From assembly GCA_946811185.2 (NCBI GenBank), contig OX328106.1, positions 47,504,311-47,568,310 on the forward strand: a stretch of DNA of 64,000 nucleotides, given 5' to 3'. Below are positions 37,207-52,795 of this stretch, piece by piece. How positions within the stretch are numbered: the stretch's first letter is position 1; each line of letters opens with the position of its first letter. Below the pieces are notes generated by a model, which saw only the letters and a list, made by a program, of their open reading frames with translations, was not told the DNA's origin and did not search any database. A program made the position numbers and the translations under genes. This DNA is from Hippopus hippopus. Taxonomy: Eukaryota; Mollusca; Bivalvia; Cardiida; Cardiidae.

Positions 37207-37215
37207 AGTAGTAAA

Positions 37216-37545: not shown

Positions 37546-37554
37546 TGGGTAAAA

Positions 37555-38070
37555 AATGGTCAGATCACTGAGTTGGACTTAGTTTTTTCACCCTATGGAT
37601 GATTTTTTTCTTTCTAATTGCCTGACCATTGAGTTGGACTTAGACTTTTTCTTATCTATGATTGATTTCTTCTCTCTAAATGGAATTTGTCCCTATATCG
37701 CTGAGTTGCACTTAGACTTTTTTTTACCCTATGTATGATTTCTAAATGTCTAACCATTGAGTTGGACTTAGTCTTTTTTCAACTATGAATTCTCTTTTTA
37801 ATTGCCTAAGCATTGAGTTGGACTTAGACTTTTTTCCCCTATGAATGATTTTTCTCTTTCTAAAAGGAATTTGTCCCTATATCACTGAGTTGGACTTAGA
37901 CTTTTTTCTGCATCTCTATGAATGATTTCTAAATGTTTGAGCACTGGGTTGGACTTAGTCTTTCTGATTTTTCTGCATCTATGAATGATTTTCTCTCTTT
38001 TAAAAAGGTTGACCATTGAGTTGGACTTAGTCTTTTTTCTACACCTATGTATGATTCTTACTCTTTGCAG
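37555..38070. repeat. Tandem repeat block, left arm (GAGTTGGACTTAG)
   Basis: About eight copies of a 55-75-bp unit. Its most conserved part is GAGTTGGACTTAG followed by a T run, ATGAATGATT and TCTAA. The mirror copies are at 51940-52440, and a further six copies are at 50110-50545. Frames that run through it are not supported as genes. Confidence 0.75.
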
Positions 38071-38130
38071 TATAACTCTCTGGAGTGTATCTCTTCTAAA
38101 AGAAAGATAGAACTTTCGTGGTAGATGGTT

Positions 38131-38170
38131 AGTCCTGAAAAGGACTGTTGGGTTAGCTCTGAAAAGAGCT
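38131..38170 (-). terminator. Two histone-type stem-loops, left arm
   Basis: On the minus strand AGCTCTTTTCAGAGCT (38155-38170) and AGTCCTTTTCAGGACT (38131-38146) both have a 6-bp stem and TTTC loop. Each is followed by (A)ACC. Confidence 0.7.
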
Positions 38171-38305
38171 GTGACAATTTGAAGAAATGACAATTTGAAG
38201 ATAGAACTTTCGTCTGACAGCTTGAAGATAGAACTTTCGTCTGGCAGCTTGAAGATAGAACTTTCGTCTGACATCTTGAAGATAGATCTTTCGTGGTAGA
38301 TGGTT

Positions 38306-38346
38306 AGTCCTGAAAAGGACTGTTGGGGTTAGCTCTGAAAAGAGCT
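38306..38346 (-). terminator. Two histone-type stem-loops, left arm
   Basis: The same pair again: AGCTCTTTTCAGAGCT at 38331-38346 and AGTCCTTTTCAGGACT at 38306-38321, minus strand, followed by AACCATCTACCACGAAAG. Confidence 0.7.
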
Positions 38347-38506
38347 GTGACAATTTGAAGAAATGACAATTTGAAGATAGAACTTTCGTCTAACAGCTTG
38401 AAGGTAGAACTTTCGTCTGACAATTTGAAGAAATGACAATTTGAAGAAAAGATAGAACTTACGTCTGACAATTTGAAGAAAGGTAGATCTTCCGTGGTAG
38501 ATGGTT

Positions 38507-38522
38507 AGCCCTGAAAAGGGCT
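38507..38522 (-). terminator. Histone-type stem-loop after the 77-residue gene, left arm
   Basis: AGCCCTTTTCAGGGCT on the minus strand, 45 bp beyond the stop codon of the gene at 38801-38568, followed by AACCATCTACCACGGAAG. Confidence 0.75.
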
Positions 38523-38567
38523 GTTTGGGGTGTCCCTAAAAGGGAGCTGGTTTTGGAGGTTGTGTTT

Positions 38568-38801
38568 TTAAGCACAACCTCCAACCTTTCTGCAGGCTGG
38601 ACAGCTACTTGCTGCCCGCCTCTTTACCCTCTTCAACTCCCGTTCATCCAGGTTGAAGTTTAGCGAGAACGCTGGCTTGTTGTCATCATCCCAGCACTCG
38701 GTCTGGGGTACGACGAACTCCTTCTTCTTGTCGTCCATCTTTTTTCTGGATGATAGCTGGGCAAGGTCCCAAAAATCCATGTCTCTTAAACCACACTCCA
38801 T
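38568..38801 (-). CDS. Small charged protein with C-terminal CPxC..GC tail, left copy
   Basis: 77 residues, identical to the right-arm copy at 51200-51433. It is acidic and polar with a KKMDDKKKEF stretch, then LDERELKRVKRRAA, and ends SSCPACRKVGGCA. Cys67, Cys70 and Cys76 (CPxCx4GC) could bind metal together with another chain. The same spacing ends the 88-residue protein. The stop codon lies inside a 10-bp-stem inverted repeat (GGAGGTTGTG/CACAACCTCC). The promoter is at 38853-38966 and the stem-loop at 38507-38522. I do not recognise a family. Confidence 0.75.
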   Translation of the reverse strand: MECGLRDMDFWDLAQLSSRKKMDDKKKEFVVPQTECWDDDNKPAFSLNFNLDERELKRVKRRAASSCPACRKVGGCA

Positions 38802-38852
38802 GTTGTCTACAAGTCGAAGAGAATGAACGATGTGCGGGAAATGACACTGGGT

Positions 38853-38966
38853 TTTATAGGTTTTCAGACGGATTGAACTAGTTGACCCATGACGTCATTT
38901 TCTCCTATGTTTTTCCCGCGTCGGCGTTTCATGCTGTTTTGGCTCCAAAAATTAATGTTATCCAAT
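38853..38966 (-). promoter_or_regulatory. E2F/CRE/TATA promoter of the 77-residue gene, left
   Basis: Read on the minus strand: ATTGG (38962-38966), GCGGGAAA (38912-38919, E2F consensus), TGACGTCA (38890-38897, full CRE) and TATAAA (38853-38858). The CRE-to-TATA gap is 31 bp. The ATG is at 38801. All four elements recur with nearly the same spacing upstream of three other small genes. Confidence 0.75.
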
Positions 38967-39233
38967 CAGAATCAGCGTTTTATTTCTAATACTAAATGTT
39001 TTATTGTTGTCCAATCCGTGGGTTTGTTACATTTTCTTGTTCGGGGATTTTATTGTTGACCAATCCGTGGGGTTGTTACATTTTCTTGATCGGGTTAGAA
39101 AAACTAGAGTTTGGCTAATCTATGACTTTTTTGATTGTGAATCTTTGCAGTGTAACTCTTCTAAAAGAAAGAAGTTTGACAATTTGAAGAAATGACAATT
39201 TAAAGAAAGATAGAACTTTCGTGGTAGATGGGT

Positions 39234-39249
39234 AGCCCTGAAAAGGGCT
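39234..39249 (-). terminator. Histone-type stem-loop after the 88-residue gene, left arm
   Basis: AGCCCTTTTCAGGGCT on the minus strand, followed by ACCCATCTACCACGAAAG. The ACCCA right after the stem is what histone mRNAs carry. Confidence 0.75.
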
Positions 39250-39281
39250 GTTTTGTTTTGGAGGCTGTGTTTTTTCCAGTT

Positions 39282-39548
39282 CTAATGGCAACACCCGAAA
39301 TTCGCTTGGCAAATGGGGCATGCTGTAATCTTCCTCCCGAACTCGATATCAACCAAAATGATATCCGGTGTTGTCTTTAATAATAGCTGAACTAATCTTT
39401 CGCCGAGATCTTTGTATGGCTGTGTTATACGTTGCAGTTGGTTTTGTTCCTCCTCTCCTACGAGACGAGTGGTTAGTTGCAATAACTGCTGCCCTGCATT
39501 TAGATACTCTCGGAGAGCCTCACGTAGTTGATGATTTACCTCCTCCAT
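39282..39548 (-). CDS. Helical small protein with C-terminal CPxC..GCCH tail, left copy
   Basis: 88 residues from the ATG at 39548, identical to 48923-49189. A long helical stretch with heptad-like leucines (REALREYLNAGQQLLQLTTR .. LGERLVQLLLK) is followed by a beta-like IILVDIEFG. The tail is ITACPICQANFGCCH (Cys77, Cys80, Cys86, Cys87, His88). The in-frame extension before this ATG begins with GTG and has no ATG, so the start is set here (Met before EEVNHQ). No family recognised. Confidence 0.7.
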   Translation of the reverse strand: MEEVNHQLREALREYLNAGQQLLQLTTRLVGEEEQNQLQRITQPYKDLGERLVQLLLKTTPDIILVDIEFGRKITACPICQANFGCCH

Positions 39549-39640
39549 ATTGATAATGTTTCCTAATATTGACACTGCTTTCGAAGTGATCGTTAGCTGA
39601 GAATCAAAGAAATGGTGAATGTATGAAAATAACGCTGGAC

Positions 39641-39756
39641 TTTATACGTTTAAGGAGGATTGAAATTTTTAAAGAGTTCGGACCTGGCAGAAAGCACATA
39701 CATTTTTTCCATGCTACGTTTCATGCTGTTTTGGTTCCAAATTAATGTTATCCAAT
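39641..39756 (-). promoter_or_regulatory. TATA promoter of the 88-residue gene, left
   Basis: Minus strand: ATTGG (39752-39756) and TATAAA (39641-39646), about 93 bp before the ATG. No E2F or CRE site is present. The TATA surroundings and leader (ATTCACCATTTCTTTGATTC .. CAGCTAACGATCACTT) are nearly identical to those of the 220-residue gene at 41229. Confidence 0.65.
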
Positions 39757-39997
39757 CAGATTCACCGTTGTTTTTTCTAATACTAATTGTTTTATTGTTG
39801 ACCAACCCGTGGGTTTGTTACATTTTCTTGTTCGGGGGGGATTTATTGTTACCCAATCCATAGGTTTGTTACATTTTCTTTTTTCGGGTAAGAAAAACTA
39901 GAGTTTAACTAACAGTCATGAGACGTTGTATGGAAAAATGTAACCAGAACAAGTCTTTTGGGGAAAACAGAATGAAGAACTCTATTGTTTTTGAACT

Positions 39998-40019
39998 TTT
40001 ATTTATTGAACTTTTATTT
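39998..40019 (-). terminator. Poly(A) signals for the 220-residue gene, left arm
   Basis: AATAAA occurs twice on the minus strand (TTTATT at 39998-40003 and 40013-40018). The mirror copy at 48453-48473 would serve the plus-strand genes. Confidence 0.6.
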
Positions 40020-40505
40020 ACTGAACAGAACTAAACATTGAAACATTTTTTTTGCAATGCATCATAAAAAATTTCTTGACAATGAAAAAAATTTCTTGAC
40101 AATGAAAAAAATCACAAGCAAACATTTTTTTGCAATGCATCATAAAAAAATTTCTTGACAATGAAAAAAATTTCTTAACAACTAAAAAAATCACAAGCAA
40201 TCATTTTTTGCAATGCATCATAAAAAATTTCTTGACAATGAAAAAACATTTTCTTAACAATGAAAAAATCGCACTGAAATATTTTTTCACAATGAATTAT
40301 TCACAACGATTTGATAACAATGAAAAAATCGCACTGAAATATTTTTTTCACAATGAATTATTCACAACGATTTGATCACGATGAAAAAAAACACACTGAA
40401 TTATTTTTTCGCAATGAATTATTCACAACGATTTGATCACGATGAAAAAACACACTGAATTATTTTTTGCAATGAATTATTTTACAATGAATTAATCGCA
40501 AAAAA
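40020..40505. repeat. AT-rich tandem repeats in the arm, left
   Basis: Two unit types. One is GCAATGCATCATAAAAAATT TCTTGACAATGAAAAAA (about three copies). The other is CACAATGAATTATTCACAACG ATTTGAT.ACAATGAAAAAA (about four copies). They form the 3' UTR of the inward core gene on each side. The mirror is at 47962-48450. Confidence 0.75.
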
Positions 40506-40566
40506 CAGTATATAACAAATTTTTATAATGCAAATTCGCAAATACCACGAGTTTCACGTTTGTTTT

Positions 40567-41229
40567 TCATATTCCTACCGTTTTGTTGTTTTTTCTTGGT
40601 TGTTTTCGTTCTGTCTTTGTTTTTTTCGGTATCTTGAAATCAACGTGATTGTCAATGTTTTTCCCGTATTTACCCTGTCCTGTCAATATTGGTATAGTTG
40701 GTTTTTGATCAATTCGCTGCTTCTTGTGGATATGGTTACCATCTTCCTCAGATTTCCGCTTTGTTGTTTTTCTTGGTTGTTTTTCCTTTGGCTGATTTTT
40801 CTTTGGTTGATTTTTCTTCACAACACTTACGATAGAGTCCACTAAGTTGTGAAGATTGGATTTATCAAACTCGAACTCCACAGGAATCTTTACAGGAGGT
40901 GTTGAAATGCGCTGATCTTGTTGACGTAGTACCTCGATATTACTACTGAGCTGATCAGTACTTACGGTTAAAGTTTTAATTTCCTCCAAATGCCTGTTTA
41001 AAGTCTCCAGCTGATCTATGATTCGGATCATCATGCTATCTTGTTTCAAATTTAGCTGCTTTACCTCTTCATAAATGTTGTCAAACACTATCGCTGGAAT
41101 GATGGTTGTCGGATTTAACTCCGGTGGTGGATTGATAATTGTCGAATTCATAACTGATGAAAGAACGTCTCCATTGTTTTCCACTGATGGAAAATCGTCC
41201 AAGCTGATTTCATCTAAGTTGTGCTTCAT
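40567..41229 (-). CDS. Coiled-coil protein with lysine-rich tail
   Basis: 220 residues from the ATG at 41229 (the longer frame to 41316 starts with GTG, and the TATA at 41322-41327 fits the shorter form). An acidic N terminus (KHNLDEISLDDFP) leads to a heptad-like helix (VKQLNLKQDSMMIRIIDQLE TLNRHLEEIKTL). A strongly basic tail follows (KKNQPKKNQPKEKQPRKTTK .. and KIPKKTKTERKQPRKNNK), as in DNA-binding or nuclear proteins. The last codons lie inside the inverted arm, so the stop region is shared with the mirror end of the 218-residue gene. It is followed by AATAAA and has no histone-type stem-loop. A terminal protein or virion DNA-binding role is possible but unproven. Confidence 0.75.
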   Translation of the reverse strand: MKHNLDEISLDDFPSVENNGDVLSSVMNSTIINPPPELNPTTIIPAIVFDNIYEEVKQLNLKQDSMMIRIIDQLETLNRHLEEIKTLTVSTDQLSSNIEVLRQQDQRISTPPVKIPVEFEFDKSNLHNLVDSIVSVVKKNQPKKNQPKEKQPRKTTKRKSEEDGNHIHKKQRIDQKPTIPILTGQGKYGKNIDNHVDFKIPKKTKTERKQPRKNNKTVGI

Positions 41230-41321
41230 ATTGTAACTGACTCTGAATATTGATACTGCTTCCAAAGTGATCGTTAGCTGTGAATCAAAGAAATGGTGAA
41301 TGTATGAAAATAACACTGAGC

Positions 41322-41385
41322 TTTATACGTTTACAGAGGATTGAAATTTTTAAAGAGGGCGGACCTGGCGGAAAGCACCGGTATT
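41322..41385 (-). promoter_or_regulatory. TATA promoter of the coiled-coil gene
   Basis: Minus-strand TATAAA at 41322-41327. The stretch up to about 41385 (ATCCTCTGTAAACGTATAAAG and GCCAGGTCCGCC) matches the 88-residue gene's promoter. It is divergent from the E2F/CRE promoter at 41470-41537. Confidence 0.6.
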
Positions 41386-41469
41386 GTACTGTGTGACACC
41401 GAATTAGGAGTGGTAAAAAACACCGATATAACCATCGATTTGATTGCGCAATGTTAATGAAACGCCGAC

Positions 41470-41537
41470 GCGGGAAAAAATATAGGAGAAAATGACGTCA
41501 TAGGTCAGTTAGTTCAATCCTCCTGTAAAGCTATAAA
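41470..41537 (+). promoter_or_regulatory. E2F/CRE/TATA promoter of the Cys-rich gene
   Basis: GCGGGAAA (41470-41477), TGACGTCA (41493-41500) and TATAAA (41532-41537). The CRE-TATA gap is again 31 bp. The ATG is 41 bp beyond the TATA box. Confidence 0.75.
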
Positions 41538-41578
41538 GCCCAGTGATATTTTACATAAAAAATCATATTTGTTCCAGA

Positions 41579-41785
41579 ATGGTTCGAATTCTTGTATGTC
41601 CTCACTGTGCAAACAGATGTCTGATAGAGTGTGGGAAATGTTTTTCCATACTCGAGTATCTTGGACAGAAGCATAACTGTCCAGATACAGATGAAGGATT
41701 TTATGATGACGATGAAGCTTCGGCGATTTGCTGCGAACACTGTGGATGCGAAATCATCCCAGTGGATCGGGTGGAAGAATCGTAG
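41579..41785 (+). CDS. Cys-rich zinc-ribbon-like mini-protein
   Basis: 68 residues starting MVRILVCPHCANRC. The upstream in-frame ATG at 41543 is only five bases beyond the TATA box and so precedes any transcript start. Four CxxC-type pairs (CPHC, CGKC, CC, CEHCGC) plus a His-Asn-Cys suggest two small zinc-binding knuckles separated by an acidic linker (DTDEGFYDDDE). No enzyme family fits; a DNA- or protein-binding adaptor is possible. It has the S-phase-type promoter, and the histone-type stem-loop lies 32 bp after the stop. Confidence 0.75.
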   Translation: MVRILVCPHCANRCLIECGKCFSILEYLGQKHNCPDTDEGFYDDDEASAICCEHCGCEIIPVDRVEES

Positions 41786-41817
41786 AGCTGAATGTCAATG
41801 TGAGATCCTTCAAAAAA

Positions 41818-41833
41818 AGCCCTTTTCAGGGCT
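41818..41833 (+). terminator. Histone-type stem-loop after the Cys-rich gene
   Basis: AGCCCTTTTCAGGGCT, preceded by CAAAAAA and followed by AACCATTTAGCACGAAAG. This is the only copy in the unique core, so its presence after a gene is not explained by arm duplication. A purine-rich CACGAAAGATC stretch sits about 12 nt downstream, where histone pre-mRNAs have the U7-binding element. Confidence 0.8.
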
Positions 41834-41943
41834 AACCATTTAGCACGAAAGATCTTTCTTCTCAAATTGTCAAAAGTAAAAAAAAAGACTTACAGTCATA
41901 ACTAGAAAAAAGTCAAAAGTAAGAAGTAATTATTTTTATATTT

Positions 41944-41949
41944 TTTATT
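41944..41949 (-). terminator. Poly(A) signal of the CCHC gene
   Basis: AATAAA on the minus strand, about 145 bp beyond the stop codon of the gene at 42944-42093. Confidence 0.55.
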
Positions 41950-42092
41950 TCAAAAAGAACTTATGTACAATGAAAAAAATCAAATCATGAACTGTAAAGA
42001 CAAAAAATGAATGAACTGTAAAAGACAAAAATGAATGAAAAATCAAGTCAGTCTTTTTTGTTTATAATCAATATTGTATTGAAATCTTTTTT

Positions 42093-42944
42093 TCACTCAG
42101 TATGTTTTTTCTTTTTCTTTGAGATGCCAGATTCACATTTGGTTTTACGTTTTCTTTTCTGATCGTTGGTTTTTAATTCCACATCTGGACAGATTTTGTC
42201 CTCATGTTTTGTTGATTTGTAAAAGAAATAGTTCTTTGTTACTCGTTTTTTCTTCTTTTCGATGTTTTGCTGTTTTTCCTTTCCGTACGAACAACCCGGT
42301 TCTGCAGAAAATTCGTTTTTTAGATCCAAAGTTTGTTGTTTTCTTAGATTATCGTTTGTAGATATTTTTTTCTCTGTCTGTTCTGTTATTTTGCAGATTT
42401 CTGAATCGTTGTTAGCCGCTGTATCGCTCTGCATGTCTACGATCTGAGTTTCAGCCGATGAGGATATAGCTTGTAGTGAACTTTTTTTCCATGTATTTTC
42501 ACTGCAGAATGAATTTAGTGTGCCGACGAATTTCATATCTTTGAATCCACCAACGTTGTAAAATGATGGTGAAATCTCAATGTCGTGACTGTGTGGGTTC
42601 ACGTAGACAAAAACAAATGTTCCTAGCTGATTTTCTTTTTCTGGACATTCTTTGGCCCAATGTCCTACTTCGTTGCATGTGAAACAAATATTTGTTCTCA
42701 CACCATTCGCACCATATCGTTTGTCGAGCGTCGCTTGATCCAAAACTCTGTACCTGGTAGTACGGTAAACATCTTTTTCTTCTAAATGTTGCTGGGAAAA
42801 AAATGATCCCACATAGTTTCCGATATGTTTAACATTATACTTTGATGGTATATTGCTGATCTCATAATCGTGGGTGTATGGATTAACATACAGATACACC
42901 CTGTTTTTAAGTGGTGATGTATTTTGCAGCTTTAACTCACTCAT
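42093..42944 (-). CDS. CCHC zinc-knuckle protein with duplicated YVNP module
   Basis: 283 residues. Two related modules flank a zinc knuckle. Residues 16-50 read VYLYVNPYTHDYEIS .. IGNYVGSFFS; residues 111-147 read VFVYVNPHSHDIEIS .. FVGTLNSFCS. Between them Cys87-Cys90-His95-Cys100 (CFTCNEVGHWAKEC) is a perfect CCHC knuckle. The C-terminal ~100 residues are polar and end in basic patches (KRKRKTKCE, KKKKKHTE) like nuclear signals. CCHC knuckles bind single-stranded nucleic acid in many families, so a replication or packaging role is inference. It is transcribed away from PolB from a shared divergent promoter and has a conventional poly(A) signal. Confidence 0.8.
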   Translation of the reverse strand: MSELKLQNTSPLKNRVYLYVNPYTHDYEISNIPSKYNVKHIGNYVGSFFSQQHLEEKDVYRTTRYRVLDQATLDKRYGANGVRTNICFTCNEVGHWAKECPEKENQLGTFVFVYVNPHSHDIEISPSFYNVGGFKDMKFVGTLNSFCSENTWKKSSLQAISSSAETQIVDMQSDTAANNDSEICKITEQTEKKISTNDNLRKQQTLDLKNEFSAEPGCSYGKEKQQNIEKKKKRVTKNYFFYKSTKHEDKICPDVELKTNDQKRKRKTKCESGISKKKKKHTE

Positions 42945-43010
42945 ATTTTTTATCAGCTGTACTGACTGAGATCGAGTAGGAGAATGAATAGATTTTCACA
43001 ACTAACGGCT

Positions 43011-43046
43011 TATTTATACACTGTTACAACGGAGAGGGTATATAAA
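43011..43046. promoter_or_regulatory. Divergent TATA promoters for PolB and the CCHC gene
   Basis: Minus-strand TATAAATA at 43011-43018 serves the CCHC gene (ATG 42944). Plus-strand TATATAAA at 43039-43046 serves PolB (ATG 43101). The two ATGs are only 157 bp apart, so the regulatory sequence is shared. No E2F or CRE site is seen. Confidence 0.7.
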
Positions 43047-43100
43047 TTGCCGGTTTTTTCTCACTTCTGCATTATTGTCTTTTCACTCAGAGCTAAAACG

Positions 43101-46100
43101 ATGGGTAAAAGAAAAAGAATAATAACCTATTCAGACAGTGAAAGTGACGATGAGGTGTTTCCACCAATAAAAAAGAAAAAAACTAGACCTTTGAAAGAAG
43201 AAAGTGACGATGAGGTATTTCCATCAATAAAAAAGAAAAAAACTAAACCGTTGAAAGAAGAAAGTGACGATGAGGTGTTTCCACCAACAAAAAAGAAAAA
43301 AACTAAACCGTTGAAAGAAGAAAGTGACGATGAGGTGCTTCCACCAACAAAAAAGAAAAAAACTAAACCGTTGAAAGAAGAAAATGATAGCAACGATGAA
43401 AGTACCAACTCTAACTTAGACATGAAAAGTCTATATGATTTAACAGAAAAGGGTAATAAGAGGTCAAGAAAATTTAAAACAGAATCACATGTGCTGATGA
43501 TGAGTTTTAAGAAATTTGAAGAATTAACACCTCAGAGACTCCTTGGATTATTTGACGATGTTACCCGTGAAATCATTCGAAAGTTAAATGCCAACCCGAC
43601 GGACATGATTAGAATTACCATCAATCATCCTTCGTTGGAAATGGGAATCCATATTCCTTTTTTAGCTGCAGGTCAGTTACAAGGTGAAACTATGCTGAAT
43701 GAAATTGAACGAGTTTTACAATCGAATACAGATTTCGTCTTGAACGATGGATTCATGACATTTGACATCACACATACAATACCACCAAGTGGTAGCGGAA
43801 AACCAAAATATAGATCGTCAGAATTAGATTCAAAGTTTTTTACCCAGAAGAAGCGATCTATTATTCAAATTGACAATCATGACCAACTATGTTTCGCAAG
43901 AGCTGTTGTTGTGGGAATTTGCTACAGTGAGCGTGAAAACACCGAGGCATGGAATAGAAAATGGGATCATATTCGTCATTCAAAATGTTCTCTTCAAAAG
44001 ACTGAAGCTGAGAAATTGTTACATGAAGTTGGAGTTTCACCAACACAGTCTGTAGGAATTGATGAATACAAAAAAATTCAAACATTCTTGTATGAAAAAG
44101 GCTATGTCATTAAAGTTCACCAACAGCATTCAAAAGTGGAAAAAATATTTAAACATCCAGAAGTGAAAGCCAATAGTAAGATCATACATTTGTACTTTCA
44201 TCAAAACCATTATGACTACATCAAATCTATCAAAGGTTTTCTTAGTTGTGCATATTATTGTGAGTTCTGTGATGTGGGTTACTCTAACCGGGAAAGTCAT
44301 GCTTGTTCAAATATCTGTAAAGGTTGTTACCGCAAAGGAAAATGTCCATCAGAATCAAAAGAATATGTTTGCAGTGTTTGCAGTAGACGTTTTTTTAGTG
44401 CTGAATGCTTTGAAAATCACAGAAATGTTCAAGGTAAAGAAAAGAAATCCATTTGTGAATTAGTGAAACTCTGCTCGAAATGCGGTGCACAATATCATGT
44501 CAGAAAGAAAAATCATGTTTGCAATGGAAAGAAAAGGTGTCATATCTGTAAGAGAATTGTTAACTTTTCTCATCAATGCTATATTCAGCCTTACCAAAGT
44601 AAGTTAAACCATGACAGCGATGACGAGACGAGTTCTTCTGTAGTCAAAAAAACACAGTTTATTTTCTTTGATTTTGAATGCAAACAAGACACAGGTGTGC
44701 ACATCCCGAATTATTGTATTGCACACAGAGCGTGTGATGAATGTATCGATAAATCACTTGATTTTCATTGTTCTACATGCAGTGAATTTGAAGAGGGTAG
44801 GGAAGTTATTTTTCAAGGTGAAGAAACTTTGAGTCAATTTTGCAACTGGCTCTTTTCAAAACATCATAAAGGGGTTACGGCTATTGCCCATAATTTCAAA
44901 GGTTATGACGGTCAGTTCATTCTTGACTATATTGTCAAAGTTGGGTTAAAACTTCCAAAAGTGATCATGAATGGAAACAATATTATGAAGTTAGAACTGA
45001 ACGGTGTACGTCTGATCGATTCTTTCAATTTCATGAGTTTTGGTTTGGCAAAATTTCCATCCACCTTTGACCTTCAAGAAATGAAAAAAGGTTACTTTCC
45101 TCACTGGGCAAATACAGATGAATTTTGGAGTTACATCGGACCCTACTTGGATATGTCTTATTACAAACCCGATTCAATGTCTGAAGAGGCTAGGTCAAAA
45201 TTTATAGTTTGGTATAATGACAAAGTTCGAAATGGTGAGGAATTCAATTTTCAGAAGGAGATGGAAATGTACTGTAGGTCAGATGTTGATATCCTCAGAC
45301 GAGGATGTGCTGAATTCAGAAAGCTGTTTATCGAACAGGGTGGTATTTGTCCATTTTTAGAGGCGATTACCATCGCAGATGCCTGTAACAAGGTGTGGCG
45401 AAGCAAATATTTACCAGAAAATCAAATAGCTATCATTTCAAGTAAAGACTCATCCAGACGTCGCTTTTCTATGAAAGCGATACGATGGGTTCAAAGCGTT
45501 GCCCAGGAAAAAGGTATTAATATTCAGCATGCAAAAAATGGTGGTGAAGCTCAAATCGGGAAATATAGTGTAGATGGTTTTCACCATCAAACAAACACTG
45601 TTTATGAATTTCTTGGAGATTTTTATCATGGTTGTCCTGTATGCTATACAGATCGAAAACAGATCAATCCTATTAATGGAAAACCCATGTCTGAATTGTT
45701 CAAATGTACTTTTGAACGTATAGCAGATATCGAAGACATGGGATATAATGTAGTGTACATTTGGGAACACGAATTTGATGCTAAGATGAAGGATAAAGAG
45801 TACAAAAAACTCATTGAAAAGTTATATCCACATTGGGACCCTATCGATCCGAGGGATGGTTTGTCCGGAGGAAGATGTAATGCAATAAAAATTGGATATG
45901 ATGTTGATGAAAAAACCAAAAAGGAAATCAAGTACATCGATATCTGTTCTCTATACCCTTATGTTTGTAAACACAAATCCTACCCTGTAGGTCATCCAGA
46001 AATTTTGTCTACTGAGAATATTGATATGAACAATATTCGCCAATATGAGGGATTAATCAAGTGTAAAGTTTTACCTCCAACTGATTTGTTTCACCCCGTT

Positions 46101-47210
46101 CTCCCAGTTCACTGTAACAACAAAATGATGTTTCCCCTCTGTATGAAATGTGCAGAAGAAAGTTCAAACATTTGTAGACATGGTAAAGAAGAGAGGGCTT
46201 TGGTCGGAACTTGGGTTACTTTTGAATTATTCAAGGCTCTTGACTGCGGTTATCGATTATTGCAAGTGTATGAAATTTGGCATTTCAACTCTGTGTCAGA
46301 TCAGTTCTTTAAACATTATGTGGACAATTTCTTGAAAATTAAGCAAGAAGCCAGTGGTTATCCAGATAGCTGTCAATCAGACTCAGAAAAAGATCAGTTC
46401 GTTTGTGAATATGAGAAGGCAGAAGGTGTTCGTCTTGATCCAAGTTGTATTCAAAAAAATCCTGGGAGAAGATCATTTGCTAAGATTATGTTGAACTGCC
46501 TTTGGGGAAAATTAGCTCAGCGTGAAAAAATGACCCAGACGGAATACATCAGTGATCCGTCTAAATATTTCGAATTAGTCACCAATCCCAATTTCATTGT
46601 AAAGCATGTAGAAATCTTTGACGAGGACTGTTCATTCATCTTGGTTAACTATGAATCAAAGTTGGAACATATTGACACCCATGCTACAGCCAATGTGATA
46701 GTAGGTTCTTACGTAACAGCTTATGCAAGGTTGGAATTGTACAGTGTTCTTGAAAAGTTAAAAGATAGAGTTCTGTATTTCGATACAGATAGTTGTATGT
46801 ACATTCACGACCCTGAATTATGGAATCCCCCTATTATTAACAGCCGGTTAGGAAAATGGAGTGATGAAGAGCCTGCTTGTAAAATTACTCAATTCAGAGG
46901 ACTTGGACCTAAGAATTATGCTTACAAAATGAAAACAAAAGATGGAAAAGAGATAAGCAAATGTAAAGTAAAGGGGGTTACTCTGGATTACAATACAAAA
47001 CAGGTGGTAAATTTCGATACATATTCGAAATGTGCTTTGGATCGTACAGTAGAAATCAAAATTCAGTATGATTGTAGAATTAAAAGACACAGAGATAGAA
47101 CGGTTACCAGTGAACCACAAACAAAAACGTTTCGTTCTGTATACACCAAGAGAGTCATTGTAAATGGTACTGATACTGTACCCTATGGTTATAAAAGCTT
47201 GAGAAAATAA
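43101..47210 (+). CDS. Protein-primed-type family B DNA polymerase (PolB)
   Basis: 1369 residues from the ATG at 43101 (a longer frame starts at 42984, before the TATA box). Residues 14-93 are four 20-residue repeats (ESDDEVFPPIKKKKTKPLKE). Residues 255-375 are OTU-protease-like: Asp261/Cys264 in NHDQLCFARA and His370 in NHYDYI. A Cys-rich zinc region follows (380-480). Exonuclease motifs: Asp524-x-Glu526 (FFDFEC), Asn598..Asp603 (HNFKGYD), Tyr724-x3-Asp728. Residues 815-900 (YEFLGDFYHGCPVCY .. IWEHEF) resemble a Vsr-type nuclease. Polymerase motifs: A at Asp947 (DICSLYP), B at Lys1128/Asn1132, C at Asp1228/Asp1230 (YFDTDS), KxY at 1271. All catalytic residues are present, so it looks active. 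It is followed after 80 bp by the 218-residue gene. PolB of this type is the core replicase of Polintons, adintoviruses and bidnaviruses. Confidence 0.92.
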   Translation: MGKRKRIITYSDSESDDEVFPPIKKKKTRPLKEESDDEVFPSIKKKKTKPLKEESDDEVFPPTKKKKTKPLKEESDDEVLPPTKKKKTKPLKEENDSNDESTNSNLDMKSLYDLTEKGNKRSRKFKTESHVLMMSFKKFEELTPQRLLGLFDDVTREIIRKLNANPTDMIRITINHPSLEMGIHIPFLAAGQLQGETMLNEIERVLQSNTDFVLNDGFMTFDITHTIPPSGSGKPKYRSSELDSKFFTQKKRSIIQIDNHDQLCFARAVVVGICYSERENTEAWNRKWDHIRHSKCSLQKTEAEKLLHEVGVSPTQSVGIDEYKKIQTFLYEKGYVIKVHQQHSKVEKIFKHPEVKANSKIIHLYFHQNHYDYIKSIKGFLSCAYYCEFCDVGYSNRESHACSNICKGCYRKGKCPSESKEYVCSVCSRRFFSAECFENHRNVQGKEKKSICELVKLCSKCGAQYHVRKKNHVCNGKKRCHICKRIVNFSHQCYIQPYQSKLNHDSDDETSSSVVKKTQFIFFDFECKQDTGVHIPNYCIAHRACDECIDKSLDFHCSTCSEFEEGREVIFQGEETLSQFCNWLFSKHHKGVTAIAHNFKGYDGQFILDYIVKVGLKLPKVIMNGNNIMKLELNGVRLIDSFNFMSFGLAKFPSTFDLQEMKKGYFPHWANTDEFWSYIGPYLDMSYYKPDSMSEEARSKFIVWYNDKVRNGEEFNFQKEMEMYCRSDVDILRRGCAEFRKLFIEQGGICPFLEAITIADACNKVWRSKYLPENQIAIISSKDSSRRRFSMKAIRWVQSVAQEKGINIQHAKNGGEAQIGKYSVDGFHHQTNTVYEFLGDFYHGCPVCYTDRKQINPINGKPMSELFKCTFERIADIEDMGYNVVYIWEHEFDAKMKDKEYKKLIEKLYPHWDPIDPRDGLSGGRCNAIKIGYDVDEKTKKEIKYIDICSLYPYVCKHKSYPVGHPEILSTENIDMNNIRQYEGLIKCKVLPPTDLFHPVLPVHCNNKMMFPLCMKCAEESSNICRHGKEERALVGTWVTFELFKALDCGYRLLQVYEIWHFNSVSDQFFKHYVDNFLKIKQEASGYPDSCQSDSEKDQFVCEYEKAEGVRLDPSCIQKNPGRRSFAKIMLNCLWGKLAQREKMTQTEYISDPSKYFELVTNPNFIVKHVEIFDEDCSFILVNYESKLEHIDTHATANVIVGSYVTAYARLELYSVLEKLKDRVLYFDTDSCMYIHDPELWNPPIINSRLGKWSDEEPACKITQFRGLGPKNYAYKMKTKDGKEISKCKVKGVTLDYNTKQVVNFDTYSKCALDRTVEIKIQYDCRIKRHRDRTVTSEPQTKTFRSVYTKRVIVNGTDTVPYGYKSLRK
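43140..43379 (+). repeat. 60-bp tandem repeat in the PolB N terminus
   Basis: Four consecutive 60-bp units, over 90 % alike, encode alternating acidic (ESDDEV) and basic (KKKKT.PLKE) 20-residue repeats. The basic runs could be nuclear localisation signals. Copy number is likely to vary between individuals (inference). Confidence 0.9.
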
Positions 47211-47290
47211 TTTCATATCACATTGTTGTGTACCAATCACTCAAAGTAAGTCGGGGAAAAATATTAGCCGCTGGTCAAAAAATAACAATC

Positions 47291-47947
47291 ATGTTGCCGC
47301 TACCAATAGAACTACGTGAAAAAATTTATGGAGAATTTGTTCGACAGCATACGCTTGATGAACGAACACAGCTTAACATTAAATTTTTCTGTGTGAAAAT
47401 TTGGATCGGAAAATTGTTTAAGTGGATTGCAAAAGGAGAAAAGTCCTACAAAGTGTATGCTATATTCAACTTTATTGCAACGATGGTGGACGATTCGGGG
47501 CTGGATCTCGTTCTCAAGACTTATTTAGCAGATAGCTGTATGAAAGACAATGTTATTAGTAAGCTGTTTAGATCCACAAGCCGATGGACATTTTTTATCA
47601 TAGGAACACCAGAAGAAAGTTTTCTTAACGTTGTGAAAATGAAATCAGTTCTATTTGACTTTTACTTACGCTACAAAAAAGGATCTGTTCATGATTCCTA
47701 CGGAGAATCAAAGGAAACCATGTCAGGGTATATTCTATTTGATAGAGATGTTACAGAAGAAGTAGTGAATTCAACTCTTTCAACAAAAGACGCTTATAGA
47801 CATGTTGCTCCATTCATAGGACTACGAGATTTCGACGATATGGACAGTGAGTATACAATGTTTTTTGGGTATGACCAATTACATAAAGACATTACGGAAT
47901 ATGAAAACAAACGTGAAACTCGTGGTATTTGCGAATTTGCATTATAA
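47291..47947 (+). CDS. 218-residue protein of unknown function, possible F-box-like start
   Basis: From the ATG at 47291 (the in-frame extension to 47228 begins with GTG). The N terminus MLPLPIELREKIYGEFV has the spacing of an F-box core (LPxEL..KI...). That motif is short, and the assignment is a guess. The rest is a mixed helical protein (FCVKIWIGKLFKWIAKGEKS, FLNVVKMKSVLFDFYLRYKK) with an acidic C-terminal third (DFDDMDSEYTMFFGYDQ). It follows PolB by 80 bp and may be co-transcribed. Its last ~18 codons lie within the inverted arm. AATAAA signals follow at 48453-48473. Confidence 0.7.
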   Translation: MLPLPIELREKIYGEFVRQHTLDERTQLNIKFFCVKIWIGKLFKWIAKGEKSYKVYAIFNFIATMVDDSGLDLVLKTYLADSCMKDNVISKLFRSTSRWTFFIIGTPEESFLNVVKMKSVLFDFYLRYKKGSVHDSYGESKETMSGYILFDRDVTEEVVNSTLSTKDAYRHVAPFIGLRDFDDMDSEYTMFFGYDQLHKDITEYENKRETRGICEFAL

Positions 47948-47961
47948 AAATTTGTTATATA

Positions 47962-48450
47962 CTGTTTTTTGCGATTAATTCATTGTAAAATAATTCATTG
48001 CAAAAAATAATTCAGTGTGTTTTTTCATCGTGATCAAATCGTTGTGAATAATTCATTGCGAAAAAATAATTCAGTGTGTTTTTTTTTTCATCGTGATCAA
48101 ATCGTTGTGAATAATTCATTGTGAAAAAAATATTTCAGTGCGATTTTTTCATTGTTATCAAATCGTTGTGAATAATTCATTGTGAAAAAATATTTCAGTG
48201 CGATTTTTTCATTGTTAAGAAAATGTTTTTTCATTGTCAAGAAATTTTTTATGATGCATTGCAAAAAATGATTGCTTGTGATTTTTTTAGTTGTTAAGAA
48301 ATTTTTTTCATTGTCAAGAAATTTTTTTATGATGCATTGCAAAAAAATGTTTGCTTGTGATTTTTTTCATTGTCAAGAAATTTTTTTCATTGTCAAGAAA
48401 TTTTTTATGATGCATTGCAAAAAAATGTTTCAATGTTTAGTTCTGTTCAG
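47962..48450. repeat. AT-rich tandem repeats in the arm, right
   Basis: Mirror of 40020-40505. Forms the 3' UTR of the 218-residue gene. Confidence 0.75.
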
Positions 48451-48452
48451 TA

Positions 48453-48473
48453 AATAAAAGTTCAATAAATAAA
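48453..48473 (+). terminator. Poly(A) signals for PolB/218-residue transcripts
   Basis: AATAAA occurs at 48453, 48464 and 48468 after the AT-rich repeats. No histone-type stem-loop lies between 47947 and here. Confidence 0.6.
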
Positions 48474-48714
48474 AGTTCAAAAACAATAGAGTTCTTCATT
48501 CTGTTTTCCCCAAAAGACTTGTTCTGGTTACATTTTTCCATACAACGTCTCATGACTGTTAGTTAAACTCTAGTTTTTCTTACCCGAAAAAAGAAAATGT
48601 AACAAACCTATGGATTGGGTAACAATAAATCCCCCCCGAACAAGAAAATGTAACAAACCCACGGGTTGGTCAACAATAAAACAATTAGTATTAGAAAAAA
48701 CAACGGTGAATCTG

Positions 48715-48830
48715 ATTGGATAACATTAATTTGGAACCAAAACAGCATGAAACGTAGCATGGAAAAAATGTATGTGCTTTCTGCCAGGTCCGAACTCTTT
48801 AAAAATTTCAATCCTCCTTAAACGTATAAA
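48715..48830 (+). promoter_or_regulatory. TATA promoter of the 88-residue gene, right
   Basis: ATTGG (48715-48719) and TATAAA (48825-48830), 93 bp before the ATG. No CRE or E2F site. Confidence 0.65.
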
Positions 48831-48922
48831 GTCCAGCGTTATTTTCATACATTCACCATTTCTTTGATTCTCAGCTAACGATCACTTCGAAAGCAGTGTC
48901 AATATTAGGAAACATTATCAAT

Positions 48923-49189
48923 ATGGAGGAGGTAAATCATCAACTACGTGAGGCTCTCCGAGAGTATCTAAATGCAGGGCAGCAGTTATTGCAACTAACC
49001 ACTCGTCTCGTAGGAGAGGAGGAACAAAACCAACTGCAACGTATAACACAGCCATACAAAGATCTCGGCGAAAGATTAGTTCAGCTATTATTAAAGACAA
49101 CACCGGATATCATTTTGGTTGATATCGAGTTCGGGAGGAAGATTACAGCATGCCCCATTTGCCAAGCGAATTTCGGGTGTTGCCATTAG
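48923..49189 (+). CDS. Helical small protein with CPxC..GCCH tail, right copy
   Basis: 88 residues, the same sequence as the left-arm copy. The first in-frame ATG is 48923. The stem-loop AGCCCTTTTCAGGGCT follows 33 bp after the stop. Although its promoter lacks the E2F/CRE pair, its 3' end is of the histone type. Confidence 0.7.
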   Translation: MEEVNHQLREALREYLNAGQQLLQLTTRLVGEEEQNQLQRITQPYKDLGERLVQLLLKTTPDIILVDIEFGRKITACPICQANFGCCH

Positions 49190-49221
49190 AACTGGAAAAA
49201 ACACAGCCTCCAAAACAAAAC

Positions 49222-49237
49222 AGCCCTTTTCAGGGCT
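49222..49237 (+). terminator. Histone-type stem-loop after the 88-residue gene, right
   Basis: AGCCCTTTTCAGGGCT, preceded by AAAACAAAAC and followed by ACCCATCTACCACGAAAG. This is the copy closest to the metazoan consensus, including ACCCA after the stem. Confidence 0.8.
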
Positions 49238-49505
49238 ACCCATCTACCACGAAAGTTCTATCTTTCTTTAAATTGTCATTTCTTCAAATTGTCAAACTTC
49301 TTTCTTTTAGAAGAGTTACACTGCAAAGATTCACAATCAAAAAAGTCATAGATTAGCCAAACTCTAGTTTTTTCTAACCCGATCAAGAAAATGTAACAAC
49401 CCCACGGATTGGTCAACAATAAAATCCCCGAACAAGAAAATGTAACAAACCCACGGGTTGGTCATCAATAAAACATTTAGTATTAGAAATAAAACGCTGA
49501 ATCTG

Positions 49506-49619
49506 ATTGGATAACATTAATTTTTGGAGCCAAAACAGCATGAAACGCCGACGCGGGAAAAACATAGGAGAAAATGACGTCATGGGTCAACTAGTTCAAT
49601 CCGTCTGAAAAGCTATAAA
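49506..49619 (+). promoter_or_regulatory. E2F/CRE/TATA promoter of the 104-residue gene
   Basis: ATTGG (49506-49510), GCGGGAAA (49553-49560), TGACGTCA (49575-49582), TATAAA (49614-49619). CRE-TATA gap is 31 bp. The ATG is 39 bp after the TATA box, so the leader is very short. Confidence 0.75.
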
Positions 49620-49657
49620 TCTCGGTGATTTATTTTCCAAGCATTTCATTTTTCACA

Positions 49658-49972
49658 ATGGCTTCAAGACAATCACCAGTCGTCACTTGGATGGATACTG
49701 AGCGAAAGTTAATAAGAGCAAGGAGACAAATCGTCTTACTTAAACAACGCCTAGCTGCAGTGAGAAGACGATACGAGAGGGCTGAGCTTGCTAATAACAG
49801 GCTGTTCTGTTATAACCTTCGGATGAAGGAACTCATTATTGAGGGCATGCTTGAGATGTATTTTCAGTATGTTATTTTAAAAACTGAGCAGGTGACCCGT
49901 CTTTTCCGTGCGCAAATCGCCACTGAAAGGAGTGAGTCAGACAGTGAATCAACTGATGCTGATACTGAATAA
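49658..49972 (+). CDS. Basic coiled-coil protein with acidic tail (right arm only)
   Basis: 104 residues from the ATG at 49658 (MASRQSPVVTW). The frame extends upstream to 49625 but would start on the TATA-proximal side. An arginine-rich amphipathic helix (ERKLIRARRQIVLLKQRLAA VRRRYERAEL) is followed by a hydrophobic helix (LIIEGMLEMYFQYVILKTEQ). A Ser/Asp/Glu tail ends the protein (ERSESDSESTDADTE). A small nucleic-acid-binding or virion protein is conceivable; no family is recognised. No counterpart exists in the left arm. Confidence 0.7.
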   Translation: MASRQSPVVTWMDTERKLIRARRQIVLLKQRLAAVRRRYERAELANNRLFCYNLRMKELIIEGMLEMYFQYVILKTEQVTRLFRAQIATERSESDSESTDADTE

Positions 49973-50003
49973 ACATTTTCATAAAATCAGCTCTTCTCAA
50001 AAC

Positions 50004-50019
50004 AGCCCTTTTCAGGGCT
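50004..50019 (+). terminator. Histone-type stem-loop after the 104-residue gene
   Basis: AGCCCTTTTCAGGGCT, 31 bp after the stop codon, followed by AACCATCTACCACGAAAG. Confidence 0.78.
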
Positions 50020-50109
50020 AACCATCTACCACGAAAGTTCTATCTTTCTTCAAATTGTCATTTCTTCAAATTGTCAATCTTCTTTCTTTTAGAAGAGTTA
50101 CACTGCAAA

Positions 50110-50545
50110 GACTCACACTCCAGAGAGTTACACTCCAAAGAGTAAAAAATCATTCATAGATGCAGAAAAAGACTAAGCCCAACTCAATGTCCAGACATTT
50201 AGAAAAAAATTCATTCATAGAATAAAAAAAGCTAAGTCCAACCCAGTGTTCAGTCTTTTAGAGAGAAAAAATCATACATAGGTGAAGAAAAAACTAAGTC
50301 CAACTCAATGATCAGGCTTTTAGAAAGAGAAAAAATCATTCATAGATGTAAAAAAGACTAAGTTCAACTCAATGGTCAGACATTTAGAAATCATACATAG
50401 GGTAAAAAAAAGTCTAAGTTCAACTCAGTGCTCAGACATTTAGAAATCATTTATAGTGTAAAAAAATCTAAGTTCAACTCAGCGATATAGGGACAAATTC
50501 CATTTAGAGAGAAAAAATCATTCATAGGATGAAAAAACTAAAAAG
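50110..50545. repeat. Tandem repeat block in the extra cassette (CTAAGTCCAACTCAATG)
   Basis: About six copies of a ~60-bp unit with AGAAAAAATCATTCATAG, an A run and CTAAGT(C/T)CAACTCA(A/G)TG. It is the same family as 51940-52440 and lies between two gene cassettes. Confidence 0.75.
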
Positions 50546-50559
50546 TGATCCATTACACA

Positions 50560-50565
50560 TATAAA
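50560..50565 (+). promoter_or_regulatory. TATA box of the 46-residue gene
   Basis: TATAAA in ACATATAAAACAC, 70 bp before the ATG at 50635. No E2F or CRE site nearby. Confidence 0.5.
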
Positions 50566-50634
50566 ACACTAAACTCTTGATTATTTTTCTCATTCACCAT
50601 TAACTTTTTGTAAAACCTGAGCCAGTATCGTACA

Positions 50635-50775
50635 ATGTTTGGATTAACATTTTTTCTCTTATTGCTCTTCTGGTTAGAAGAAAGAGAACGTTTCAGATAT
50701 ATCAGACATGAAATTGAACATCTGATGCAAATGCTAGATAAAATGGAATCAATCAAAAGAAAGAGAGGGGTATAA
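50635..50775 (+). CDS. 46-residue micro-protein with membrane segment (right arm only)
   Basis: ATG at 50635, TAA ending at 50775. The N terminus FGLTFFLLLLFWL is a single hydrophobic segment long enough for a signal anchor. It is followed by a charged amphipathic helix (EERERFRYIRHEIEHLMQ) and a basic end (KRKRGV). The gene is supported by a TATA box, a compact leader and, 24 bp after the stop, a histone-type stem-loop with changed but still pairing bases. A small viral-type membrane protein is a fair guess, not a conclusion. Confidence 0.55.
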   Translation: MFGLTFFLLLLFWLEERERFRYIRHEIEHLMQMLDKMESIKRKRGV

Positions 50776-50799
50776 AAAAGTGCATTCTGTACAAAAAGC

Positions 50800-50815
50800 A
50801 ACTCTTTTCAGGGTT
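50800..50815 (+). terminator. Variant histone-type stem-loop after the 46-residue gene
   Basis: AACTCTTTTCAGGGTT. Relative to AGCCCT/AGGGCT the second pair has become A-T (G to A matched by C to T). The fourth is now T-G, a wobble pair. The TTTC loop is unchanged. Pairing is kept while sequence changes, which is evidence for function. Confidence 0.65.
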
Positions 50816-51034
50816 AGCTATCTTAAATAATCATCTTTCTTTTCATTTTATCAGAAGACTCATAATCAAAAAAAGTCATAGGTTAGTTAAACTCTAGTTT
50901 TTCTAACCCGATCAAGAAAATGTAACAACCCCACGGATTGGTCAACAATAAAATCCCCGAACAAGAAAATGTAACAAACCCACGGGTTGGTCATCAATAA
51001 AACATTTAGTATTAGAAATAAAACGCTGATTCTG

Positions 51035-51148
51035 ATTGGATAACATTAATTTTTGGAGCCAAAACAGCATGAAACGCCGACGCGGGAAAAACATAGGAGA
51101 AAATGACGTCATGGGTCAACTAGTTCAATCCGTCTGAAAACCTATAAA
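51035..51148 (+). promoter_or_regulatory. E2F/CRE/TATA promoter of the 77-residue gene, right
   Basis: ATTGG (51035-51039), GCGGGAAA (51082-51089), TGACGTCA (51104-51111), TATAAA (51143-51148); CRE-TATA gap 31 bp. Nearly identical to 49506-49619. Confidence 0.75.
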
Positions 51149-51199
51149 ACCCAGTGTCATTTCCCGCACATCGTTCATTCTCTTCGACTTGTAGACAAC

Positions 51200-51433
51200 A
51201 TGGAGTGTGGTTTAAGAGACATGGATTTTTGGGACCTTGCCCAGCTATCATCCAGAAAAAAGATGGACGACAAGAAGAAGGAGTTCGTCGTACCCCAGAC
51301 CGAGTGCTGGGATGATGACAACAAGCCAGCGTTCTCGCTAAACTTCAACCTGGATGAACGGGAGTTGAAGAGGGTAAAGAGGCGGGCAGCAAGTAGCTGT
51401 CCAGCCTGCAGAAAGGTTGGAGGTTGTGCTTAA
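51200..51433 (+). CDS. Small charged protein with CPxC..GC tail, right copy
   Basis: 77 residues, identical in sequence to the left-arm copy at 38801-38568. The identity of the protein in both arms shows recent copying or gene conversion between the arms. Same promoter and 3' stem-loop arrangement. Confidence 0.75.
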   Translation: MECGLRDMDFWDLAQLSSRKKMDDKKKEFVVPQTECWDDDNKPAFSLNFNLDERELKRVKRRAASSCPACRKVGGCA

Positions 51434-51478
51434 AAACACAACCTCCAAAACCAGCTCCCTTTTAGGGACACCCCAAAC

Positions 51479-51494
51479 AGCCCTTTTCAGGGCT
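51479..51494 (+). terminator. Histone-type stem-loop after the 77-residue gene, right
   Basis: AGCCCTTTTCAGGGCT followed by AACCATCTACCACGGAAG. A weaker hairpin, CTCCCTTTTAGGGA, lies just upstream at about 51455-51468 and looks like a decayed second copy. Confidence 0.75.
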
Positions 51495-51654
51495 AACCAT
51501 CTACCACGGAAGATCTACCTTTCTTCAAATTGTCAGACGTAAGTTCTATCTTTTCTTCAAATTGTCATTTCTTCAAATTGTCAGACGAAAGTTCTACCTT
51601 CAAGCTGTTAGACGAAAGTTCTATCTTCAAATTGTCATTTCTTCAAATTGTCAC

Positions 51655-51695
51655 AGCTCTTTTCAGAGCTAACCCCAACAGTCCTTTTCAGGACT
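51655..51695 (+). terminator. Two histone-type stem-loops, right arm
   Basis: AGCTCTTTTCAGAGCT (51655-51670) and AGTCCTTTTCAGGACT (51680-51695). The first matches the animal histone consensus except for the outermost pair. Confidence 0.7.
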
Positions 51696-51830
51696 AACCA
51701 TCTACCACGAAAGATCTATCTTCAAGATGTCAGACGAAAGTTCTATCTTCAAGCTGCCAGACGAAAGTTCTATCTTCAAGCTGTCAGACGAAAGTTCTAT
51801 CTTCAAATTGTCATTTCTTCAAATTGTCAC

Positions 51831-51870
51831 AGCTCTTTTCAGAGCTAACCCAACAGTCCTTTTCAGGACT
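51831..51870 (+). terminator. Two histone-type stem-loops, right arm
   Basis: AGCTCTTTTCAGAGCT (51831-51846) and AGTCCTTTTCAGGACT (51855-51870), the latter followed by AACCATCTACCACGAAAG. Confidence 0.7.
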
Positions 51871-51939
51871 AACCATCTACCACGAAAGTTCTATCTTTCT
51901 TTTAGAAGAGATACACTCCAGAGAGTTATACTGCAAAGA

Positions 51940-52440: not shown

Positions 52441-52456
52441 ACCATTTTTTACCCAA

Positions 52457-52786: not shown

Positions 52787-52795
52787 TTTACTACT

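Follow-up and report, generated by a model that had tools for sequence, protein, structure and literature searches.

Histone-type 3′-end signals on non-histone genes of a predicted Maverick-derived element in the bivalve Hippopus hippopus

Replication-dependent histone mRNAs of animals are described as an unusual class that ends in a hairpin and has no poly(A) tail. The hairpin together with a downstream element marks replication-dependent histone genes (PMC5011920, PMC1924863), and this pair of signals has been described for such genes, including those of a bivalve (PMC5011920, PMC1924863, PMC6210712, and PMC9756948). In the openly licensed literature that we searched, as represented by listings and the beginnings of abstracts, we found no report of a virus or transposon that uses this hairpin, and no paper on histone-type 3′ ends in Mavericks. 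Histone-like proteins come up in a preprint about DNA viruses of animals, whose text does not contain the terms stem-loop, hairpin, and polyadenylation (PMC11071296). Here, we analyze a window of 64,000 nucleotides (nt) from Hippopus hippopus (assembly GCA_946811185.2, contig OX328106.1, positions 47,504,311 to 47,568,310, forward strand), which contains a Maverick/Polinton-type insertion whose terminal inverted repeats are long. The small, non-histone genes of this element are followed by hairpins of the histone kind. We think it highly probable that these genes, along with a putative capsid gene in related copies, rely on the host's replication-dependent histone pathway to form the ends of their transcripts, because the hairpins occur far above chance, show compensatory changes, hold a gene-specific position, are conserved in other copies, and match the ends of the host's own histone genes.

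Our analysis found 15 hairpins of 16 nt in the element, each with a loop of TTTC and a 6-bp stem in which all six pairs are intact, at the positions given by an earlier, sequence-only reading of the window. Every one fits the 16-nt pattern NNYYCTTYTNAGRRNN with full pairing. Six lie on the minus strand (at 38131, 38155, 38306, 38331, 38507, and 39234) and nine on the plus strand (at 41818, 49222, 50004, 50800, 51479, 51655, 51680, 51831, and 51855), leaving nine non-redundant hairpins when each terminal repeat is counted once. Dinucleotide shuffles of the element yielded a mean of 0.055 hairpins and a maximum of 1 (200 shuffles) versus the 15 observed, while the rest of the window returned a single match, a U-rich one at 34218. 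The claim that stem variants stay paired was borne out: three of the six pairs have changes on both sides, and broken cells number 0 of 54. In an Rfam scan of the window, RF00032 (Histone 3′ UTR stem-loop) had matches at E<=1 to 10 of these 15 hairpins and to nothing else; the scan also returned many chance matches to microRNA families. Searches of viral contigs with hairpin patterns gave 0, 0, and one probable chance match, in a phage contig.

The position of the hairpins depends on the gene. A sense hairpin lies 24 to 45 nt past the stop of all seven small-gene copies in the window, which represent five different genes. The gene of 68 amino acids (aa) (41579-41785, plus strand) has its hairpin 32 nt past the stop (41818-41833, plus strand; 25.7 bits against RF00032), with ATTGTCA at +33. 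The 88-aa gene (48923-49189, plus strand; left copy at 39548-39282, minus strand) is followed by a hairpin at 49222-49237 (plus strand; 28.5 bits; left copy at 39234-39249). Two genes are present in the right arm only, namely the 104-aa gene (49658-49972, plus strand) with its hairpin at 50004-50019 (plus strand; 24.1 bits) and the 46-aa gene (50635-50775, plus strand), whose hairpin at 50800-50815 (plus strand) has the diverged stem AACTCT/AGGGTT and no RF00032 match at E<=1. Finally, the 77-aa gene (51200-51433, plus strand; left copy at 38801-38568, minus strand) has a hairpin at 51479-51494 (plus strand; 22.1 bits; left copy at 38507-38522). No histone Pfam match was found among the 68-, 88-, 104-, and 77-aa proteins, and the 46-aa protein was scanned against PHROGs only. 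Around the four larger genes of the window copy, the 1.2 kb past each stop is free of hairpins (0/4): the family-B DNA polymerase (PolB) gene of 1369 aa (43101-47210, plus strand; PF03175, E=5.5e-45), the 218-aa gene (47291-47947, plus strand), the 283-aa zinc-knuckle gene (42093-42944, minus strand; PF00098, E=2.2e-7), and the 220-aa gene (40567-41229, minus strand), whose stop abuts the terminal repeat. The sequence-only reading had placed the hairpins mostly 30 to 45 bp after a stop; in our counts, 7 of the 15 lie 24 to 45 nt past one (at 24, 31, 32, 32, 32, 45, and 45 nt), and the other eight do not.

Related copies elsewhere in the genome carry the same signal. In 1.07 Gb of sequence on 34 contigs, a pattern of the hairpin plus its flank had 4,370 exact matches, and the reversed control had 0. 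We read 21 stretches of contig 1 and counted 19 (labeled with L numbers), dropping L012 and L015 as overlaps and omitting the first 1 kb of L020, which overlaps L016. Among small-gene ends with readable flanks, 48 of 54 had a hairpin with all six pairs in the next 110 nt (12/14 for the 68-aa gene, 13/13 for the 88-aa gene, including tandem copies in L018, 8/8 for the 104-aa gene, 6/9 for the 46-aa gene, and 9/10 for the 77-aa gene). When we allowed at most one change in the core and at least five of six pairs around it, all 54 ends qualified, even as local protein identities among the copies ranged from 36% to 98%. Further small genes with a terminal hairpin were seen in the diverged copies L014, L017, and L027 (protein ends such as LYPSLVWN, FNDSSDSE, and LYREFFDE). 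At the ends of the PolB (12 copies), 218-aa (14), and 283-aa (10) genes, a hairpin with at least five of six pairs was found in 0 of 36 cases, and a weak core with four pairs in 6 of 36. Likewise, no hairpin followed the integrase gene, p298, or the first half of a capsid gene (one end each), or the ATPase-like gene, p139, or p289 (two ends each).

The scan of relatives also widened the set of carriers. The description of the small genes as the carriers is accurate for the window copy and too narrow for the family, in which a putative capsid gene and a homologue of the 220-aa gene have the hairpin as well. We presume that the gene in L016 encodes a capsid protein from gene order and from an apparent resemblance to Maverick capsid proteins; it has no database match. 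A genome search with this gene scored the best 150 of 647 candidates, and 20 of these 150 matches, spaced along the list, were picked manually for reading. Hairpins with at least five of six pairs, which were thus not absent from relatives of the element, followed all 20 sampled stops, as they did all 54 small-gene stops; specifically, 17 had six pairs and 3 had five, at 26 to 29 nt past the stop (a listed gap that is one too large on minus-strand copies). Two further copies had five pairs (L032, judged by eye) and six pairs (L016). Among themselves, the copies are 97-100% alike, and the flank around their hairpin differs from that of the small genes. In the sampled copies (L042-L061), the hairpin is followed by AAAGAGCATATATAG in 18 of 20 and by AAGAGAAGT in 2 of 20, and by the usual downstream element in 0 of 20. 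The 220-aa homologue in L022 has a hairpin 23 nt past its stop, with two hairpins in a row (L022:1529-1568), unlike the window copy, and in L023 and L024 hairpins stand close behind matches resembling the 220-aa gene.

Comparison with the host's own histone 3′ ends, which had been suggested alongside the sequence-only reading, showed that these ends carry hairpins of this kind and have their downstream layout in common with the element. The host genes form a tandem array on contig 15 (from a histone search in which the best 150 of 256 candidate matches were scored), and one unit, L031, contains H3, H4, H2B, H2A, and H1, with names assigned from the sequences. Their hairpins are GGCCCTTTTAAGGGCC in H3, H4, and H2A, GGCCCTTATCAGGGCC in H2B, and GGTCCTTTTCAGGACC in H1, with loops of TTTA, TTAT, or TTTC. 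RF00032 matches past all five stops at 30.0-35.2 bits, one of the five being above the cut-off of 34. Downstream, the host ends have a purine block near +12 (CGAA, CGAGAG, AGAAAG, or AGAG), followed between +30 and +34 by KTGTCA. The latter motif occurs at +34 to +36 after four of the five small genes in the window, where its chance of falling within a given 10-nt interval, estimated from the rest of the window, is about 0.007. When 48 nt of downstream sequence were aligned, the five element sequences scored 33.1 against the host, and host sequences scored 33.95 against each other; shuffled downstream sequences scored 20.3 (standard deviation 1.4), with 0 of 500 reaching 33.1, and sequences past the larger-gene stops scored 18.75. 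Four diverged copies, picked by hand, scored 32.9 versus 19.6 for their shuffles (standard deviation 1.5). Furthermore, AGAAAGTTCTTTT downstream of H2B corresponds to CGAAAGTTCTATCTTT of the element copies. Within the element, the downstream string varies more than first described: a relaxed form, CCAT[CT]TA[CG]CACG[AG]AAG, follows 10 of the 15 hairpins and is absent at 50800 and after the first hairpin in every tandem pair. Separately, 27-bp tandem repeats, ACGAAAGTTCTATCTTCAAGCTGTCAG (51707-51813, with a left copy), resemble the downstream element in about four repeats.

The earlier reading, that genes of a mobile element that are not histone genes have histone-type 3′ ends, thus gains support from the host histone ends and from the related copies. 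The mechanism that we propose would begin with SLBP binding the hairpin AGCCCTTTTCAGGGCT of element transcripts. The U7 particle would then recognize the downstream element, in which GAAAGTTCT is the putative U7-pairing stretch, and the transcript would be cut a few bases past the hairpin and left without a poly(A) tail. PolB and its hairpin-free neighbors presumably end by the ordinary poly(A) route. In this way the element would sort its genes into two classes by the type of 3′ end, with the histone-type class largely limited to S phase and spared competition at the poly(A) machinery.

Promoter sequences bear on this timing. TATAAA starts 44 to 98 nt ahead of every small-gene start, and in three of the five small genes it stands beside what we take to be an E2F-type site and a CRE, TGACGTCA. 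These are the promoters of the 77-aa gene (51082-51148, plus strand; CRE at 51104, TATAAA at 51143), the 104-aa gene (49553-49619, plus strand; CRE at 49575, TATAAA at 49614), and the 68-aa gene (41470-41537, plus strand; CRE at 41493, TATAAA at 41532). The element has three such pairs spaced by 40 nt or less, versus 0 in 300 shuffles; no such pair occurs at the 88-aa or the 46-aa gene. Since three of five small genes have these sites by the TATA box, S-phase expression is suggested at both ends of these three genes, and we infer such timing for the small genes from sequence. The three promoters are related by duplication, those of the 104-aa and 77-aa genes being 96% alike, and so are not independent cases. 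They do not appear to have been copied from the histone unit, because L031 has no TGACGTCA and its sole E2F-type match sits inside a gene. The 220-aa and 88-aa genes encode different proteins, but their leader and promoter sequences (41224-41378 and 48774-48928, respectively) are about 87-91% alike. With moderate confidence, we favor the broader proposal that a Maverick DNA virus lineage took over the host histone 3′-end pathway for a class of genes that includes the capsid gene and leaves the replication genes outside, giving a two-class program by 3′-end type that is tuned to host histone signals and is partly equipped with S-phase-type promoters.

Several observations weigh against these proposals. 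The stretches that we read were selected for holding or adjoining matches to the hairpin pattern, and the copies are related to each other, such that the counts are not independent. The outermost pair is A-U in nine of nine non-redundant hairpins and G-C in the host histone hairpins. The element's CTTTTCAG occurs exactly in H1 alone, one of five host histone genes, with CTTTTAAG in its place in H3, H4, and H2A and CTTATCAG in H2B. The ten RF00032 matches in the element score 22.1-28.5 bits, under the gathering score of 34, as do four of the five host histone ends. KTGTCA is missing downstream of the 46-aa gene hairpin (50800) and of the putative capsid-gene hairpin. Eight of the 15 hairpins are arranged in tandem pairs, two to each arm, 221 to 421 nt beyond the 77-aa gene, with no open reading frame (ORF) directly upstream (51655, 51680, 51831, and 51855, within 51655-51870 on the plus strand, and their left-arm copies within 38131-38346 on the minus strand); it is possible that they are fail-safe ends for read-through. 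U7 small nuclear RNA was not found: eight pattern candidates were unlike U7, a tighter pattern had 0 matches, and the Rfam search missed its controls. Finally, AATAAA is no clean marker of the two gene classes. Among the larger genes, the first AATAAA follows the stop by 505 nt in the 218-aa gene, 143 nt in the 283-aa gene, and 548 nt in the 220-aa gene; it is absent within 800 nt past the PolB stop, and in other copies neither AATAAA nor ATTAAA occurs within 150 nt of most large-gene ends. Small genes have it too: at the 104-aa gene it overlaps the stop (49968-49973), about 30 nt ahead of that gene's hairpin, and it occurs 171 nt past the 46-aa stop and 227-228 nt past the 88-aa stops. Because host loops vary and poly(A) signals separate the classes uncleanly, our confidence in the histone pathway and in the two-class program is slightly lower.

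An argument can be made that the hairpins are passengers, that is, a single captured histone-like 3′ segment that was copied along with gene cassettes and is without current function. The cassettes have indeed been duplicated, as seen in the two promoters that are 96% alike and in the homologous downstream flanks of most hairpins, and the extra tandem pairs have no preceding ORF. Yet a segment of this kind would not be expected to show an identity of 0.93 across the five genes in the hairpin versus 0.28 in the stretch from -30 to -6, nor to keep at least five pairs in every small-gene copy, some of which are at 36-60% local protein identity. The compensated stem changes and the different flank around the capsid-gene hairpin also speak against passengers, and we consider this account improbable.

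It is quite improbable, in our judgment, that the element's mRNAs are instead polyadenylated at nearby AATAAA signals and that the hairpin acts only in S phase, through SLBP, on translation or stability. The signals over the 104-aa stop and downstream of the 46-aa and 88-aa stops are compatible with that idea, and some human histone mRNAs with a hairpin and downstream element can be polyadenylated, according to PMC9756948. Nevertheless, six of the seven small-gene copies have no AATAAA between stop and hairpin, the exception being the 104-aa gene with its signal over the stop, and none occurs for 800 nt past the 68-aa and 77-aa stops; moreover, the downstream element, whose role is in cutting, is conserved and host-like. 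We find very improbable a third account, in which the hairpins are DNA-level sites for replication, packaging, or recombination or, independently of SLBP, an intrinsic terminator or a virophage-like poly(A) hairpin. Many copies do lie inside the terminal repeats, and the eight tandem hairpins have no ORF directly upstream. However, orientation and distance track gene stops, the hairpin is of the kind found on host histone genes, and nothing in such an account gives a reason for the downstream match to host histones.

The hairpins sit in an insertion of 15,589 bp (37207-52795), flanked by a 6-bp target duplication, ATTGTC (37201-37206 and 52796-52801), and ending in AGTAGT and ACTACT. The extent assigned from sequence at first was too small; the repeat arms and the ends set these limits. 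The left terminal inverted repeat (37207-40566; 3,360 bp) is about 99.5% identical to the right (47904-52795; 4,892 bp) in two blocks. About 1.5 kb of the right arm, roughly 49373-50868, is without a left-arm counterpart and contains the 104-aa and 46-aa genes. Because the promoters near both sides of this segment are 96% alike, the left arm likely lost it through recombination. Just inside each end is a near-perfect palindromic hairpin whose stem exceeds 20 bp (37214-37270 and 52732-52788). When the host flanks are joined without the element, a single open frame of 717 codons is restored, and the element is therefore probably a recent insertion that split a host coding region (36169-37227 and 52751-53866).

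As in Mavericks/Polintons, the element has terminal inverted repeats, a 6-bp duplication, and (AGT)2//(ACT)2 ends, and the PF03175 match identifies a family-B polymerase, for which protein priming is predicted by class. Among the scanned ORFs of the window copy, we recognized no integrase, ATPase, protease, or capsid gene. A stretch of the same family, L016, has an integrase with rve and chromodomain (PF00665 and PF00385), an ATPase-like gene, and the putative capsid gene, which is also present in L032; in L025 and L033, integrase and ATPase-like genes adjoin PolB. Such genes were recognized in relatives and not among the scanned ORFs of the window copy, and we therefore class it, on gene content, as a Maverick-derived element and not an intact Maverick. 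The polymerase was the sole protein named with confidence in the PHROGs scan, and modeling the 218-aa and 283-aa proteins with AlphaFold gave structures too poor for use (pLDDT 39 and 32). Queries with PolB, its core, the 218-aa gene, and the putative capsid gene had zero matches in viral contigs; PolB had none in prokaryote genome contigs, and part of the PolB gene had none in phage records.

If our reading is correct, an element in many copies (at least 150 matches to the putative capsid gene of its relatives) uses a histone signal for non-histone genes, which would mean that the pathway is exploitable. Such genes would be natural non-histone substrates for probing the requirements of SLBP and U7, for example at the outermost pair. 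The reading could explain why transcripts of this type would be missed in poly(A)-selected data, and it suggests how Mavericks may time their activity to host DNA replication.

The comparison with known systems covers one host species. Adenovirus-type early promoters have E2F and ATF/CRE sites, and the element resembles them in the candidate E2F- and CRE-type sites beside TATA in three of five small genes; it differs from them in its 3′ ends. The likeness to the ends of animal replication-dependent histone genes extends to the 16-nt hairpin with its stem of 6 bp and loop of 4 nt, to CTTTTCAG, which host H1 has as well, an A-rich 5′ flank, a 3′ flank of AACC or ACCC in most element copies, the short distance from stop to hairpin, and a downstream element resembling the host's. 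The element departs from histone genes in encoding non-histone proteins, in its outermost A-U pair where histones have G-C, in the extra tandem hairpins past one gene, and in the AATAAA at the stop of another. With Mavericks/Polintons it shares a family-B polymerase and terminal inverted repeats, and its relatives in the genome have integrase (rve and chromodomain), ATPase-like, and putative capsid genes. Its 6-bp duplication and its end motif, (AGT)2//(ACT)2, are those of vertebrate Mavericks as given in PMC8097293. What sets this copy apart from Mavericks is that its terminal repeats, 3.4-4.9 kb long, contain small genes, and that these genes appear to have histone-type 3′ ends.

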